Below are positions 788 through 51,507 of a DNA stretch of 60,823 nt, in pieces. The notes beneath the pieces are model-generated. The model ran no database searches and was not told the DNA's origin. It saw only the letters and a list, made by a program, of their open reading frames with translations. The translations under genes and the position numbers were made by a program. The stretch lies in assembly GCA_945864585.1 (NCBI GenBank), contig CAMBCF010000010.1, forward strand, positions 1 to 60,823, read 5' to 3'. Origin of the DNA: Bordetella parapertussis (GTDB lineage Bacteria > Pseudomonadota > Gammaproteobacteria > Burkholderiales > SG8-41). Each line of letters starts with the position of its first letter. The stretch's first letter is position 1.

Positions 788-2467
788 ATGAATGGGAGAC
801 CTCGCACGATTAAGACCAACGTGCTGCTCGTAGGCGGGGGACCGGTCGGCCTGACGCTCGCCATGGACCTTGCCTGGCGCGGTATCGATGTCCTCGTCGC
901 GGAGAGGCGAGAGGCCGACGCTCATTCGAGCGCCAAGTGCGGCCAGATTTCGGCTCGCTCAATGGAAATCTTTCGCCGTCTGGGCGTCGCCCACAAGCTG
1001 CGCGAAATCGGGCTTCCGCCAAACTACCCGAATGACATCGTCTCGGCCACAAGCGTGACCGGAATCGAGCTCTCACGCGTGCCCATCCCTGCGCGAGGCG
1101 AGCGAGGCACCTCCGCAACGGGCCCGGACACGTCGTGGCCAACACCGGAACACACTAACCGGGTCAACCAGACGTTTTTCGACCCGGTACTACTCGCTCA
1201 CGCGAGAGCGCAACCGCGCATCAGCATCCTCAACTGTACCGAATTCGAGGAATTCACTCAGCACGAGCATGGCGTTACGGCAATGGCTCGCAACCCCGAG
1301 AGCGGCGAGGCATTTTCGATCGAGTGTGCGTATCTTGTAGGTTGCGACGGTGCCAGTTCGATAGCCCGCAAGGCAATCGGCGCCGAGTTTAGCGGCACGC
1401 CAGTGGTTCAGCGCGTTCAGTCGACACACATCCGAGCGCCGGGGCTCATGAAGAGGCTCCCCGGGAAACCCGCTTGGAATTACCTGTCCCTCAACCCGCG
1501 TCGCTGTGGATCCACGATGGCCGTCGATGGTCGCGAGACCTGGATCATTCATAATTTTCTCTATCGCGGCGAAGAGGACATTGATTCCGTCGACCGCGAT
1601 TGGGCGATCCGGGCGATCCTTGGCGTCGGACCTGACTTTCATTATGAAGTTATCTCGAAAGAGGACTGGATCAGTCGTCGGCTCGTCGCGGACAAGTTGT
1701 GGGACCGGCGAGCATTCATATGCGGCGATGCGGCGCACGTGTGGATTCCGCATGGAGGCTACGGCATGAATGCCGGCATTGCAGATGCCGCAAACCTGGC
1801 CTGGAAGTTGGCAGCGACGCTGAAAGGCTGGGCCTCGCCGGGCATACTCGATGCCTACGACGCCGAGCGCCAGCCGATCACGGATCAGGCCTCGCGCCTC
1901 ATTACAGAGATCGCCCAGAGGATCGTGACGCACCGGCGCGAAGTCTCTGACGACATTGAGCGGCAGGATTCCGTCGGTGAGGCCACGCGTGCGCGCATTG
2001 GGAAAACAGCCTATGAGCTCGACGTGGAGCAACAATGCTGCGGCGGCCTGAATTTCGGTTACTACTACGACGGCTCGCCGATCATCGCCTATGACGGCGA
2101 GCAGCAGCCCGCATATACCATGGGCACGTTTATTTCGTCCACAGCTCCCGGATGCCGCGCGCCTCACCTGTGGCTCGAAGGCCGCCGGTCACTTTACGAC
2201 GCGCTGGGGCCGGACTACACGCTCCTTCGCTTCGATCCCGCGGCGCGCGTCGCGGGCATCGTCGAAGCCGCGGCGGAACGAAAAGTCCCGCTCACAGTAT
2301 TGGATGTGAAAGCGCCAGCGGCGCGAGAGGTTTATCGGCACAAGCTCGTAGTAATACGCCCGGACCAGCATGTGGCTTGGCGTGGTAACGAGGACCCGGC
2401 CGCTCCGCTGGACTTGATAGATCTCGTCCGCGGCGCTCGCGCAATCCCGACATCGAAAGGGGCATGA
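788..2467 (+). CDS. FAD-dependent aromatic-ring monooxygenase (PheA/TfdB/MhpA type)
   Basis: This 559-residue flavoprotein hydroxylase should use NAD(P)H and oxygen to hydroxylate an aromatic or related substrate. The FAD-binding motif VGGGPVGLTLAMDLAWRG is near residue 16, the DG motif YLVGCDGASS near residue 184, and the second FAD/ribose motif ICGDAAHVWIPHGGYGMNAG near residue 311. Length and order match the FAD_binding_3 family, including a thioredoxin-like C-terminal part. The start is preceded by AGGAGG nine to ten bases upstream. It lies directly after the attC site, but no second attC closes it, so it is either the last gene of an array or part of the insertion target. Its 3' end overlaps the truncated minus-strand gene at 2332-2883. 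The substrate cannot be read from the sequence. Confidence 0.88.
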   Translation: MNGRPRTIKTNVLLVGGGPVGLTLAMDLAWRGIDVLVAERREADAHSSAKCGQISARSMEIFRRLGVAHKLREIGLPPNYPNDIVSATSVTGIELSRVPIPARGERGTSATGPDTSWPTPEHTNRVNQTFFDPVLLAHARAQPRISILNCTEFEEFTQHEHGVTAMARNPESGEAFSIECAYLVGCDGASSIARKAIGAEFSGTPVVQRVQSTHIRAPGLMKRLPGKPAWNYLSLNPRRCGSTMAVDGRETWIIHNFLYRGEEDIDSVDRDWAIRAILGVGPDFHYEVISKEDWISRRLVADKLWDRRAFICGDAAHVWIPHGGYGMNAGIADAANLAWKLAATLKGWASPGILDAYDAERQPITDQASRLITEIAQRIVTHRREVSDDIERQDSVGEATRARIGKTAYELDVEQQCCGGLNFGYYYDGSPIIAYDGEQQPAYTMGTFISSTAPGCRAPHLWLEGRRSLYDALGPDYTLLRFDPAARVAGIVEAAAERKVPLTVLDVKAPAAREVYRHKLVVIRPDQHVAWRGNEDPAAPLDLIDLVRGARAIPTSKGA

Positions 2468-2883
2468 CTGAGAGAGTTTGCAAGCCGCGAGTTGTTCTTG
2501 TAGTTGATCACGATGTAGTTCTCGCCGTCGATCACAGCCGACTGGTTGATCGTGAGTCCGGAATCTTTGCAAATTTTGACTTCCCATCGCTTGTTGAAGC
2601 GCGCCAGGTCCGCGTACCTCAACCCACGTGCGAAAGTTCTGAAATGTTGAATGATCGAGGTTTCGATCTTTTCTGAGAGGTCGCGCGCCAATACGCCGGC
2701 GGACGGCGCCTTGAAACCGTACTCGTCGAATACGGGTGTGATCTTGTCGTAAAGATTCTTGAGCTTAAGGAACGCCGACTTGACCGCGAGGACGATGCCC
2801 TCAATTTCCTCGTCGGTAAGTGGCTCCTTGGGAACGTAACTCTGCTCTGCGGCAGCTAGTTCGGATTGTCGCTGTTCGCGCAT
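2332..2883 (-). CDS. Hypothetical protein, probably truncated at its C-terminus
   Basis: I do not recognise the family. The gene has a strong ribosome-binding site (GGGGAGG six bases before ATG at 2883) and ordinary soluble-protein composition for about 135 residues, including RYADLARFNKRWEVKICKD and VIDGENYIVINYKNNS. From about residue 139 the sequence runs antisense into the end of the monooxygenase gene and turns arginine/serine-rich (APRTRSIKSSGAAG), as expected of an unselected frame. The likely reading is that the original gene was cut near 2470 when the monooxygenase block arrived. Any product would have a foreign tail of about 45 residues. Confidence 0.5.
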   Translation of the reverse strand: MREQRQSELAAAEQSYVPKEPLTDEEIEGIVLAVKSAFLKLKNLYDKITPVFDEYGFKAPSAGVLARDLSEKIETSIIQHFRTFARGLRYADLARFNKRWEVKICKDSGLTINQSAVIDGENYIVINYKNNSRLANSLSHAPFDVGIARAPRTRSIKSSGAAGSSLPRQATCWSGRITTSLCR

Positions 2884-3005
2884 ACCAGCCTCCCCTTGCG
2901 ATTCAGCCTTGCACCAGCACAGATAAGAATAATAAAAACAAACACTTATACTACCTCCTGCTCTGCTATGATTTATTTATCCTCTGAACCCACACAGGAA
3001 TCCAC

Positions 3006-3812
3006 ATGACCGGCAGCATACCCAAGGCCTACCGCAACGAAGCGTTTCTCAACAGCCGTGATGGGCGCGCGCTGCGCATACTCGCCGAATACCTCGAGCC
3101 GAAAAGCCGCTTTGATCGCGAGCATGTCGACGACACCATCGTGTTCATGGGCTCTGCGCGCACCCTGTCACGCGTTCAAGCCGAGGCCGCGCTCCAAAAG
3201 ACCGAGGCTGAAGGCAGCGATCTCACCGCCGTGCAAATGGCGCTAAAAATGTCCGCCTATTACGAGGCTGCGCACAACCTCGCGTTGCGGCTGACGCAAT
3301 GGTCCAAGGCGCTCGACAGCATCGAGAAGCGCTTCGTGGTGTGTACCGGCGGCGGCCCCGGGATCATGGAGGCTGCGAACCGCGGCGCCTCCGCAGCGCG
3401 CGGCGTGAATGTGGGCCTCACCATCTCGCTGCCGATGGAGGAATTCGACAACCCCTACATCACACACGGACTGGCGTTTCACTTCCATTATTTTTTCATG
3501 CGCAAATTCTGGTTCTACTACCTCGCCAAAGCGGTGATCGTGTTCCCCGGTGGATTCGGCACGCTCGACGAATTGTTTGAACTGCTCACGCTGGTGCAAA
3601 CACGCAAGATGAAAAAGCCCATGCCGATTGTGCTGTTCGGCACTGAATACTGGAGCCAGGTCGTCGATTTCGACGCGCTGGTGCGCCACGGCATGATCAA
3701 TGCCGCCGATGTGTCGCTGGTGCATCGCACCGACTCGGTGGATGATGCCTATGACTACCTCGTCAGGCATCTCACCCGGGATGCGCTCGGGCAACCTGGG
3801 CTAATGCTGTAG
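3006..3812 (+). CDS. LOG-family Rossmann-fold protein (TIGR00730-like)
   Basis: The 268-residue protein carries both hallmarks of the LOG / lysine-decarboxylase-like family: a nucleotide-binding GGGPGIMEAANRGA around residue 116 and the catalytic loop PGGFGTLDELFELLT around residue 180. Characterised relatives are cytokinin riboside 5'-monophosphate phosphoribohydrolases or nucleotide N-glycosidases. This is the longer type with an N-terminal helical extension. Start ATG follows CAGGAATCCAC. It is a single gene, convergent with the ThDP enzyme downstream. The AT-rich stretch 2925-2990 probably contains its promoter. Confidence 0.88.
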   Translation: MTGSIPKAYRNEAFLNSRDGRALRILAEYLEPKSRFDREHVDDTIVFMGSARTLSRVQAEAALQKTEAEGSDLTAVQMALKMSAYYEAAHNLALRLTQWSKALDSIEKRFVVCTGGGPGIMEAANRGASAARGVNVGLTISLPMEEFDNPYITHGLAFHFHYFFMRKFWFYYLAKAVIVFPGGFGTLDELFELLTLVQTRKMKKPMPIVLFGTEYWSQVVDFDALVRHGMINAADVSLVHRTDSVDDAYDYLVRHLTRDALGQPGLML

Positions 3813-8278: not shown

Positions 8279-8460
8279 CTAACCTATGCATACATCTTCC
8301 GTAGCCCGGAAGAAGTCCGAAGGACGTATTCCGGGAAGAAGCACCGCGCATCGACAGCACGCGAGTTCATCCACTCACACTTCCCCGGAATACGGCCATG
8401 AAAAGCTATGGCCTTCTTCCGGGCTACATGCTCTAACACTCAAAGTTGTGTGCATGGATT
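8279..8460. repeat. Diverged MITE-like element enclosing a REP-type palindrome pair
   Basis: The outer ends CTAACCTATGCATACA (8279-8294) and TGTGTGCATGGATT (8447-8460) are imperfect inverted copies of the termini of the intact element at 50468-50625. Nested inside are two facing palindromic units, 8301-8335 and 8384-8427. They share GTAGCCCGGAAGAAG at the outer edge and CGTATTCCGGG at the inner edge. The rest of the gene-free gap 8206-8572 shows no convincing coding region. Confidence 0.55.
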
Positions 8461-8572
8461 CGCTCTCCGGGAGACAGGGTTAGGAGTCGCGCAGATACGT
8501 CATTCTCAATAACTTCAGATCCTCCGGATGTGTTTACGCACTGGATGCTGGCGTCCGCCAGCGTGACGGGTC

Positions 8573-48223: not shown

Positions 48224-50341
48224 CTACCTCAAAACAATCAACGCATCCGCTACAACCACGCCAGACCCCGCCGGCCGCACCAGCACAGGATTCAAATCCA
48301 TCTCGGCAATCCACTCCCGCAGCAACCACGCGAATTCCGACACCGCCGAGAGCATTTGCGCCAGCGCATCGATATCGCGCGGCGCCTGCCCGCGCAAGCC
48401 GGCAAAAACCGGTGATGCCTTGAGTTCGCCGATCATCTCGCGCGCTGTCTCGGTGTCAAAAGGCGCAATGCGGTAAGTCGTATCGCGCAGCGTTTCCGCC
48501 AGCACGCCGCCCAATCCGAACACCACTATCGGTCCAAACACAGGATCATTCAGCACGCCGATAATGGTCTCAAGCCCGTCGCTGATCATCTCGGACACGA
48601 GTACGCCGGCAATCGCCGCCGTGGGCGACGCTTTTTTCGCATTGGCGACGACTTCCACGACCGCGCGTTCGAGTTGGGCATTGTCAGCGACGCCCAGCTT
48701 TACGCCGCCGATGTCGGACTTGTGTGCGATATCGCGCGAAACGATTTTTACTGCCACCGGAAATTGCATGCCATCGGGCAAATGCTTCACGGCAGCGTTT
48801 GCATCGAGCAATACGTCGCGCGTCACGCTGAGGCCAAACTCACGCAGGATTTGCTTGGAGGCATGTTCGTTCAGCGCGCCGCTAGTTGCCGGTAACGCGG
48901 GCAGCTTGCGGCTCGTGGGCAGGTACTCGGTGCTCAGCCGCGCCGACTGTGCGCGTGCGCGGCTGTAATCGGCGAGTTTGTCCATTGCGGCGGCGACGCG
49001 GCGGGGCGTGCCCATCGTCGGGATACCGGCCTTGCGAAAAATTTCTCGTCCCTCGACCGTCATTTCAGGCGGCAGCGCGGAGAAAACAAGCACCGGCTTG
49101 TGGCCGGGGTTGCGTGCAGCGAGTGTGGCAGTGGCGGACTGCACCAAGGTGTCGCCGCCGCCGGTGGCGAGAAACACACCCAATTGATCGATACCGGGAT
49201 CGGCCAGCACCGCTTCGATGCACTCGGTAAACCGTGGCATGTTTTCTTTTTTCTGAAAGCCGGCGGTGAGGTCGATGGGGTTGACCACCGAGCCGATGCT
49301 GGGCACGTGCTCACGCAGTATCGCGCGGGTGGCTTCAGTGAGCGGCGCGAGTGTCAGGCCGTGATCGTCGGCGGCATCCGAAAAACTCACCAGCGATCCG
49401 CCGGAGCCGCTCATCACGGCCACATTGCGCCCGCGCGCCAGACGCCCGCCAACCAGCGTTTGCAGAATATCCACCGCGTCGCCGATGTCGAGGGCTTCGA
49501 CCACGCTACACTGCCTGCAGGCGGCGCGATACACATCGTGGGAGCCGGTGAGGAATGCGGTGTGCGAGGCGGCGGCACGCTTGCCCTGGTGCGTGTTGCC
49601 GGCTTTGATCACGACCAGCGGCTTGCCGGCGGCGAGCGCGCGCCGTGCCGCGGCCATGAAGGCGCGGCCATCGTGCACGCCTTCGAGATAGGCGAGGATG
49701 ACCTTAGTGCCGGGATCATCCACAAGAGCATCGATCAACTCGGTGGCTTTGATGTCGCACTCGGCGCCGCTCGCCACCAGATAACGAAAGCCCACGCCAG
49801 CATAGCCGCACTGGATGACCATGCTGTTGCCGTAACCGCCGCTCTGGATGATGGCGGATACCGGCCCCGGCTTGAGATCGGGCGGGCGCGTGATGCTGCC
49901 AAAACCGGCGTACACATGATCATGCACGTTTTTGTAACCGAGGCAGTTGGGTCCGATGATGCGCACGCCGCCCGCGCGCGCGGCTTCGAGCATCTGGCGT
50001 TCGAGTTCTGCGCCTTCCGCACCCACTTCGCGAAAGCCGCCGCCGACTACTACCGCAAAGCCGATGCCTTTGTGGCTGCATTGCGTGATGACAGCGGGAA
50101 CATATTTCGCCTGCAACACAATCACGGCGACATCGACTGGCCCGTCTATATCGGCAATCGCGCGGTAGCATTTTTTGCCGGCGATTTCTTCGTAGTTCGG
50201 GTTGACCGGATAGATGCCGCATTGATAGCCGTGCCGGTCGAGTGCGTGCAAGGTTTGTCGTCCGGGCCGCGACAGATCGTTGTTGGCGCCGACGATGGCA
50301 ATGCCGCGCGGGTTGAACATGTGGGTGAAGTTGGACGGCAT
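48224..50341 (-). CDS. NDP-forming acyl-CoA synthetase (acetate-CoA ligase family)
   Basis: The 705-residue protein has a CoA-binding domain (FNPRGIAIVGANNDLSRPG), succinyl-CoA-ligase-like domains with the phospho-histidine region KRAAASHTAFLTGSHDVYRA, and a C-terminal ATP-grasp domain (NEHASKQILREFGLSVTRDV, VAVKIVSRDIAHKSDIGGVK, GPIVVFGLGGVLAE, EMDLNPVLV). It activates an organic acid with CoA or makes ATP from an acyl-CoA. It is the last gene of the minus-strand acyl-CoA operon that starts at 53716, though a 314-base gap with a MITE-like insertion now separates it from the others. Confidence 0.92.
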   Translation of the reverse strand: MPSNFTHMFNPRGIAIVGANNDLSRPGRQTLHALDRHGYQCGIYPVNPNYEEIAGKKCYRAIADIDGPVDVAVIVLQAKYVPAVITQCSHKGIGFAVVVGGGFREVGAEGAELERQMLEAARAGGVRIIGPNCLGYKNVHDHVYAGFGSITRPPDLKPGPVSAIIQSGGYGNSMVIQCGYAGVGFRYLVASGAECDIKATELIDALVDDPGTKVILAYLEGVHDGRAFMAAARRALAAGKPLVVIKAGNTHQGKRAAASHTAFLTGSHDVYRAACRQCSVVEALDIGDAVDILQTLVGGRLARGRNVAVMSGSGGSLVSFSDAADDHGLTLAPLTEATRAILREHVPSIGSVVNPIDLTAGFQKKENMPRFTECIEAVLADPGIDQLGVFLATGGGDTLVQSATATLAARNPGHKPVLVFSALPPEMTVEGREIFRKAGIPTMGTPRRVAAAMDKLADYSRARAQSARLSTEYLPTSRKLPALPATSGALNEHASKQILREFGLSVTRDVLLDANAAVKHLPDGMQFPVAVKIVSRDIAHKSDIGGVKLGVADNAQLERAVVEVVANAKKASPTAAIAGVLVSEMISDGLETIIGVLNDPVFGPIVVFGLGGVLAETLRDTTYRIAPFDTETAREMIGELKASPVFAGLRGQAPRDIDALAQMLSAVSEFAWLLREWIAEMDLNPVLVRPAGSGVVVADALIVLR

Positions 50342-50458
50342 GGCGTGTCTCTTCAGCGAGTAAGGTATTATAAGTATATGTTTTAAATGGCTTTATTCGC
50401 AGGCACAAACGTCTTGGGCTACGTAAACGCCTTGCGGAATGTAAACGTCGCTCCCTCC

Positions 50459-50634
50459 CCCAAGGGGCTAATCTATGCACACAAGTCATCTCATGCCGTT
50501 CGCTCTGAGTAAGTCGAAGCATGAATGGCTTGATTTTATGGGTTTTTTTAAGCTGCTCATTCTTCGGTAATATTATGGAAAACTCTTTAATAATCAATTA
50601 GTTGTAAGATGTGTGCATAGATTAGCCCAAGGGG
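50459..50634. mobile_element. 158-bp MITE-like element with 9-bp target duplication
   Basis: The element is 50468-50625. Its ends CTAATCTATGCACACA and TGTGTGCATAGATTAG are perfect 16-bp inverted repeats. CCCAAGGGG flanks it on both sides (50459-50467 and 50626-50634), a classic 9-bp target-site duplication. The interior is AT-rich (TTTAAGCTGCTCATTC) and has no coding region. A diverged relative lies at 8279-8460. Confidence 0.82.
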
Positions 50635-50655
50635 ATACGCTGCGCTCCTTCCAGG

Positions 50656-51507
50656 CTACAGTTTGCTTTCAGCACCGCGCAGCTTGATGATCTGCGTATG
50701 GTAAATCTCGGCGCAGACTTCATCGTTAGAGCGCACCGCGCAGTAGATGGTGAGCCAGTGGTTTTGTTTTTTCTCCCACTTGGCTATGGGCAAAGTCAGG
50801 ATGTGCACGGGATCGCCCACGCGCAGCATTTTGCGGATCACGGCTTTGGTTGAGCTGTGCACGGCGTTGTCGCCGATGAACTGGTTGTTGTAGCCGAGCT
50901 GCACCAGCCGCAACACGTGCGCGGGGTGTAGCGGCGCTCGCTCGCCGTCTTCGTAGATCGGCAGATCGTCTTCGAGCACGCCCTTCCAGTAGGCGTTGTC
51001 CTGCGCGGTGAGCGTAAGACTCAGCGAACGATACGCCCGACCAACGATGATGTTGTCCCAGGTGCGGCGCTGCGTGACCGGGCCTTCCCATTCGTTGGGC
51101 CGGGTCGCGGCGGCGGCATCCACTGCGGGAAAAGCGCTGGGCACAGCACTCAGCAGGCGCGCGCAAATTTCGCCGCCTGCGGTTTCGTTATAGGCCGTGA
51201 CCTCGTATGCCTGTTCTGCCTCGCGGCCCGCAACCGGCAAGGTTTCGATGCGCAGGTGATCGCCTTCGCATACGGGCTTGATGAATTTCGCTTCCACCAC
51301 CGCGCGGCTCAACCACGTTGCGCCCAATTGCGATACCAGCGCGCGCGTCATGTTGCCGTAGTTCGCCACACCCAGCACAAAGGGGCCGCGAAAGCCAAGT
51401 TTTTGCGGCAGGCCATCAGTGTGCATGCGGTTGTGCGATTGGTGATTCGCGTGATGCGCTACTACGGTGTAGGGCCTGCCGACGGCGTAGATTTGGGCTG
51501 TGGTCAT
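50656..51507 (-). CDS. MaoC-like double hot-dog protein
   Basis: The 283-residue protein appears to have two hot-dog units. The first carries NRMHTDGLPQKLGFRGPFVL, which resembles the hydratase motif HxDxxxAxxxGF, and FIKPVCEGDHLRIETLPVAG. The second includes YNNQFIGDNAVHSSTKAVIR and LRVGDPVHILTLPIAKWEKK. It should act on an acyl-CoA as hydratase or thioesterase. It sits in the acyl-CoA operon between a second MaoC-type gene and the CoA ligase. Confidence 0.8.
   Translation of the reverse strand: MTTAQIYAVGRPYTVVAHHANHQSHNRMHTDGLPQKLGFRGPFVLGVANYGNMTRALVSQLGATWLSRAVVEAKFIKPVCEGDHLRIETLPVAGREAEQAYEVTAYNETAGGEICARLLSAVPSAFPAVDAAAATRPNEWEGPVTQRRTWDNIIVGRAYRSLSLTLTAQDNAYWKGVLEDDLPIYEDGERAPLHPAHVLRLVQLGYNNQFIGDNAVHSSTKAVIRKMLRVGDPVHILTLPIAKWEKKQNHWLTIYCAVRSNDEVCAEIYHTQIIKLRGAESKL

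Follow-up and report, generated by a model that had tools for sequence, protein, structure and literature searches.

A 158-bp MITE with IS50-type ends in an acyl-CoA gene run and its probable mobilisation by a Tn5-like transposase

Introduction

A short sequence with perfect inverted ends, bounded by a direct repeat, lies between two co-directional acyl-CoA genes of a bacterial genome. What is this sequence, and what brought it there? We analysed it within the window, the whole stretch of 60,823 nucleotides in which it was noticed, and in the genome from which the window comes. We favour, with a probability of roughly 0.9, the reading that it is a MITE of 158 bp and that an IS50-subgroup (Tn5-like) insertion sequence (IS) of the IS4 family in the same genome supplied the transposase in trans.

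Results

The element spans window positions 50468–50625, where perfect 16-bp terminal inverted repeats and 158 bp of non-coding sequence can be read directly. Its left repeat, CTAATCTATGCACACA (50468–50483, plus strand), agrees with the IS50-subgroup end consensus at 7/7 positions. The right repeat, TGTGTGCATAGATTAG (50610–50625, minus strand), is evident from direct reading and end comparison, and the two pair over 16/16 bp. Between them lies a non-coding interior of 126 bp (50484–50609), which aligns lengthwise with a 155-bp element at locus L156. The element is flanked by two copies of a 9-bp target-site duplication, CCCAAGGGG (50459–50467 and 50626–50634), which agree at 9/9 bp and are nearly palindromic in their own right. 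The longest open frame within the 158 bp has 43 codons, and no transposase gene is present.

To gauge chance occurrence, we searched for perfect inverted repeats of at least 14 bp, with arms 60–600 bp apart and bounded by a direct repeat of 8–11 bp. This combination is found at one place only in the whole window, that of the element, and in none of 100 dinucleotide-preserving shuffles of the window. The direct reading confirms that the first-pass annotation had described the ends, the 126-bp interior, the duplications and their coordinates exactly. The element is short, lacks a transposase gene, and has terminal repeats, a target duplication and ends shared with an IS, all of them features by which MITEs are recognised. 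It is a MITE, that is, a non-autonomous element, of the ordinary kind.

The 16-bp end occurs exactly 15 times in the 5.0-Mb genome, compared with 0 occurrences of a reversed control pattern; with up to 3 mismatches the counts are 59 and 8. Complete short elements number 14: the 158-bp one of the window and 13 of 183/184 bp, which have related ends with mismatches and an interior unrelated to that of the window element. A decayed 184-bp copy of this commoner type lies in the window itself (8279–8462), with 2 mismatches per end and the flanks CCCCCCGGG/CTCTCCGGG. The subtype of the window element is single-copy in the genome, as all others of 55 matches to its whole stretch cover the ends only. 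Its own mobility therefore rests on the duplication and on L156. Recurrence of the ends elsewhere in the genome, the check proposed at first reading, is borne out by the 15 exact copies, the 13 further MITEs and ends linked to transposase sequence.

A complete IS with the same ends is found in a Propionivibrio MAG (L154, positions 2087–3551). It is 1465 bp long with two perfect 16-bp ends, and its right flank stops after 3 bp at the contig end. The transposase, of 438 amino acids in a single frame, has its last codons inside the end repeat. It matches the NCBIfam family IS4_3 (2.1e-97) and Tn5 transposase structures (2.1e-25), and is 47–48% identical to one annotated ISSysp3. The catalytic residues D62-D158-E299 and the YREK motif Y292-R295-E299-K306 fit the spacing of the IS4 signature, D(60~110)D(100~150)E and Y(2)R(3)E(6)K, as laid out in PMC2266710. 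Table 1 of that paper gives the IS50 subgroup the end consensus CW------Y---CA-A--W-, a duplication of 8–9 bp and a length of 1350–1550 bp. Nine ends that we compared, both of L154 included, each agree with the consensus at 7/7 positions, and the length of L154 and the 9-bp duplication of the window element fall within the ranges of this table. The end of ISSysp3, CTACTGTGTACACACA, differs from the window element end, CTAATCTATGCACACA.

The host genome contains its own relatives of this IS, whose ends are identical to the window element over 20 bp at the right end and 16 bp at the left. The right end together with the next 4 bp inward thus gives a 20-bp identity with both ends of the genome's own IS. 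Pieces of the transposase C-terminus, 81–86% identical to that of L154, continue from the ends on contigs C60, C128, C134 and C187; the first three hold the last 43 codons at 86% identity to the L154 transposase, and C187 holds 31 codons. An N-terminal piece on C112 corresponds to query residues 2–33 (81% identical to L154), a shorter one lies on C178, and C53 holds a transposase core that lacks its 5' part, is distributed over two frames and stops at the contig end. The assembly of the window's genome yielded no intact transposase gene, only pieces at contig ends, mostly short. Contigs ending inside a repeated IS would be expected from short-read assembly of a multi-copy IS, and an intact transposase probably exists in the living cell. 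The suggestion that the element was moved by a transposase encoded elsewhere agrees with the end copies, the second MITE type and the transposase gene pieces of this genome, and with the existence of a complete IS with the same ends.

One contig end could indicate that an IS1380-family transposase, and not an IS4-family one, moves these ends. On C97 (1-422), a transposase C-terminus matching PF13701 (2.3e-11), which we take to stand for IS1380, lies some 200 bp inward of the same end, and four more pieces of that family are present in the genome. However, the first 36 bp of the C97 end equal the IS4-type 5' end of C112 and the sequence changes thereafter, as it would if an IS1380 element were located within a copy of the IS4 element or next to one. 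IS1380-family elements make duplications of 4–5 bp, compared with 9 bp here and 9–11 bp in 21 of 43 paired elements (defined below). Moreover, IS4-type transposase sequence accompanies the ends on C60, C128, C134, C187, L154 and L124, the last judged by eye. We consider mobilisation by an IS1380-family transposase very unlikely. Four loci, L006, L010, L011 and L005 (contigs C107, C165 and C97 of genome G000), agree with the IS 5' end over its first 36 bp or more before the sequences part; on these three contigs, IS1380 elements may have inserted into the IS4 element.

Among 399 genomes of the order, matches to the window element at 1e-8 are found in three: the window's genome, G118 and G421. 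The match in G118 covers all 158 bp at 78% identity and has the same sequence as L156, the 155-bp element from another genome of the order that is 78% identical to the whole window element. The G421 match is limited to the first 68 bp. L156 is flanked by CCTTTTTGG/CCTTTTGAG, a target different from that of the window. As for the ends, a 19-base pattern is found in 5 of 74 genomes of the family and a 20-base form in 66 stretches of a GTDB-based collection. The window element had no match in the plasmids collection, the L154 IS DNA none in the phages collection, and the 20-base end pattern was absent from viral_contigs. Several of the 66 stretches (L109, L116, L119 and others) come from records that carry the name Bordetella parapertussis, a depositor's label that looks doubtful for what are apparently MAGs of the same genus.

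These relatives bear on a further alternative, in which the window element is the immobile remnant of a full IS, shortened at this site by internal deletion, with the duplication left by the original IS. The ends shared with the IS, the single copy in the genome and the assembly without an intact transposase speak for such a remnant. Its interior, however, shares nothing with the IS beyond the ends, and a full-length relative with 78% identity sits at a different target (L156/G118), with a partial one in G421; the short form itself must therefore have moved. The remnant is no more credible than the IS1380 transposase. For the MITE reading, the claim of recent movement is made plausible by the perfect ends and the duplication, but the subtype is single-copy and its interior is more decayed than that of L156.

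We collected 43 paired elements, allowing up to 3 mismatches in either end and up to 4 in the two together, a threshold that excludes L056 (2+3), one of the 13 MITEs of the host genome itself. A perfect duplication of 9–11 bp is present in 21 of them; among the 22 without one, one is cut by a contig end. Duplications are 9, often 10 bp in the MITEs, 10 bp in ISSysp3 and L222, and 11 bp in L223, so that several relatives have 10-bp duplications compared with the 8–9 bp listed for the subgroup in PMC2266710. At L024, L052, L083 and L108 the flanks look inverted or nearly so instead of direct, and all four lie in hairpin-like sites. Recombination between copies in different hairpins would explain mismatched flanks, by analogy with what PMC1525189 proposes for ISRm22.

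The family prefers hairpins of the form CCC-N3-GGG as landing sites. GGG stands directly outside 64 of 133 distinct ends, compared with 1.3% of window positions, and the further flank is CT-rich. We restored the target for those elements, 20 of 43, whose duplication is perfect and 9 or 10 bp long, leaving out L142 (11 bp). In these sites a mean of 7.5 of 12 flanking positions pair, compared with 4.96 in 4000 random window sites, a rough contrast in which an axis shift was allowed in both sets and a few extra shifts, with the centre between bases, for the elements only. Pairing at 8 or more of 12 positions is seen in 11 of 20 restored sites and in 2.25% of random sites; the random control is one window of one genome, whereas the elements come from many genomes. 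There are 36 occurrences of the pattern TCTCCCNNNGGGAGA in the genome and 0 of its reversed control, and such hairpins are therefore a repeat class of the host genome. When joined, the target interrupted by the window element (50448–50645) reads tcgctccctcccccaaggggatacgctgcgc, a partial CT-rich hairpin in which 7/12 flanking positions pair. The restored site, taken at first for typical intergenic sequence, is rather a weaker example of the hairpin type that the family prefers.

The interiors of the 43 elements fall into 10 groups by single linkage with at least 60 aligned bases, one group consisting of two IS-sized elements. Most of the other groups have an interior composed of a single palindromic repeat or of two in opposite orientation. 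Folded without their ends, 15 representatives hand-picked from the 43 gave z below -4 in 10 cases and -2.1 in one; four were unremarkable, namely the window's copy (z -1.3), L136, L151 and L171. In L156 a GTTCG...TGTCGAAG repeat, present in two clear copies inverted to each other, makes up the interior. In the window, alignment with L156 places a decayed copy of this short palindromic repeat (GCCGTTCGTGCTGAACTTGTCGAAGCATGAATGGC in L156) at 50495–50529, and the second copy, which stands out in L156, can hardly be recognised here at about 50560–50585. By this alignment, the window interior is a decayed version of the L156 type. The host genome has free inverted pairs of the L156-type repeat at three further positions. 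The group of 161/215 bp carries a CTCTCCC...GGGAGAG hairpin, the sort of site in which the elements land.

The spacer that holds the window element is 314 bp long and separates two minus-strand genes, neither of which is broken. They encode a 283-residue protein without a Pfam match (50656–51507) and a protein with CoA-binding, succinyl-CoA-ligase-like and ATP-grasp domains (48224–50341), and the same gene run includes a MaoC-like dehydratase, a ChsH2-like OB-fold protein and a thiolase. With the CoA-ligase protein as query, some homologue was found in 14 of 14 genomes of the genus, the window's genome counted, but the only close one besides the window's own is in G068 (91% identical). The orthologous spacer there consists of 280 bp of other sequence, with neither the element nor the CCCAAGGGG target. 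The first-pass annotation had proposed to look for an empty site with a single target copy in relatives; at this locus the element is missing, but so is the single copy, and the comparison speaks neither for nor against the insertion. No empty allele of the window site was seen at this one close orthologous locus. The spacer of the gene pair seems to turn over quickly. The G068 spacer (C31, L183:3604-3883) contains a different palindrome, CCGTCATTCCAGCTTGCGCTGGAATGACGG, and no MITE.

Between 50300 and 50760 no sigma-70 promoter-like or terminator-like site and no Rfam match was found, and an effect of the element on expression of the CoA ligase, as initially suggested, is thus unsupported. The sole predicted RNA feature is a hairpin in a read-through transcript, whose terminal stem has 16 bp (-42.1 kcal/mol, z -6.5). 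One might take this stem for a conserved, static hairpin with a regulatory or structural role, but that is the least probable reading: the stem coincides exactly with the terminal repeat, the interior folds unremarkably on its own, the element is missing from the G068 spacer and has no Rfam match, and many genomes have the same ends elsewhere, next to direct repeats.

Discussion

Mobilisation in trans by the IS50-subgroup transposase builds on observed ends, a duplication, family members, a related transposase with the IS4 signature and a target preference. By analogy with Tn5, a transposase dimer would bind both ends, over 16–20 bp, and the element would be cut out and joined to staggered cuts 9 bp apart, whose repair would leave the 9-bp duplication; such cut-and-paste chemistry is probable for this family, and a transposase of the L154 type probably moves the window element. 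Preferred sites are GC-capped palindromes with a CT-rich arm, CCC-N3-GGG and a GA-rich arm, many of them present as short hairpins in the genome. The window copy would have entered one such site, a partial hairpin, in the spacer that separates the two acyl-CoA genes.

The transposase family of the MITE is well supported, and what began as an isolated sequence oddity becomes a member of a widespread family with a likely transposase and a clear landing-site rule. What deserves to be retained is this rule, together with the palindrome-filled interiors. A hairpin preference has an IS4-family precedent in ISRm22, for which PMC1525189 reports 10 of 10 Sinorhizobium meliloti copies in palindromic REPs, at the symmetry axis. 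The present family resembles ISRm22 in this respect and adds an IS50-type case, but it has IS50-type ends and duplications of 9–10 bp, whereas ISRm22 is placed in subgroup IS4Sa (PMC2266710) and has 6-bp repeats (PMC1525189). New beyond the earlier finding are the CCC-N3-GGG preference and the inverted palindrome pairs in many MITE interiors. We considered L223, an S. meliloti IS, as ISRm22 and set it aside, as its ends are IS50-type and the subgroup differs.

The window element lacks a transposase, unlike IS50 and Tn5 themselves. Like the bacterial MITEs of a review (PMC10969869), it is short, non-coding and intergenic, with IS-shared ends and a duplication; the hairpin-site preference and the palindrome-filled interiors are marked in the present family. 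The term IS4 is absent from the main text of that review. The end sequence was not found in published text within open-licence PMC, and literature searches brought up no obvious report of an IS50-subgroup MITE, which is no proof of absence.

A wider interpretation can be offered only tentatively, and we hold it to be rather doubtful. In it, a set of MITEs of this Tn5-like IS lineage would both land in hairpins and be filled throughout by inverted pairs of short palindromic repeats, with several unrelated sequences and, in one lineage, the hairpin type of the landing sites; they might thereby spread their own landing pads. Part of the REP-like hairpins of these bacteria would then be dispersed by a DDE transposase and not by REP-associated tyrosine transposases, and the same route would have picked up a toxin–antitoxin pair. 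If palindrome-carrying interiors prove to be a rule, they offer a testable route for the spread of REP-like repeats.

The toxin–antitoxin pair lies in a 1084-bp element of G068 (C20, L092:436-1519), which has the same ends and contains genes for a MazE-like antitoxin and a PIN-domain protein. Its arms match the 184-bp MITE at 94% over 94 bp and at 84% over 161 aligned bp, and it is a non-autonomous element with toxin–antitoxin cargo. Mobile insertion cassettes have no transposase and carry a gene between IS ends. The L092 element is similar to these in holding the MazE-like/PIN pair between its ends, whereas the window element carries no gene.
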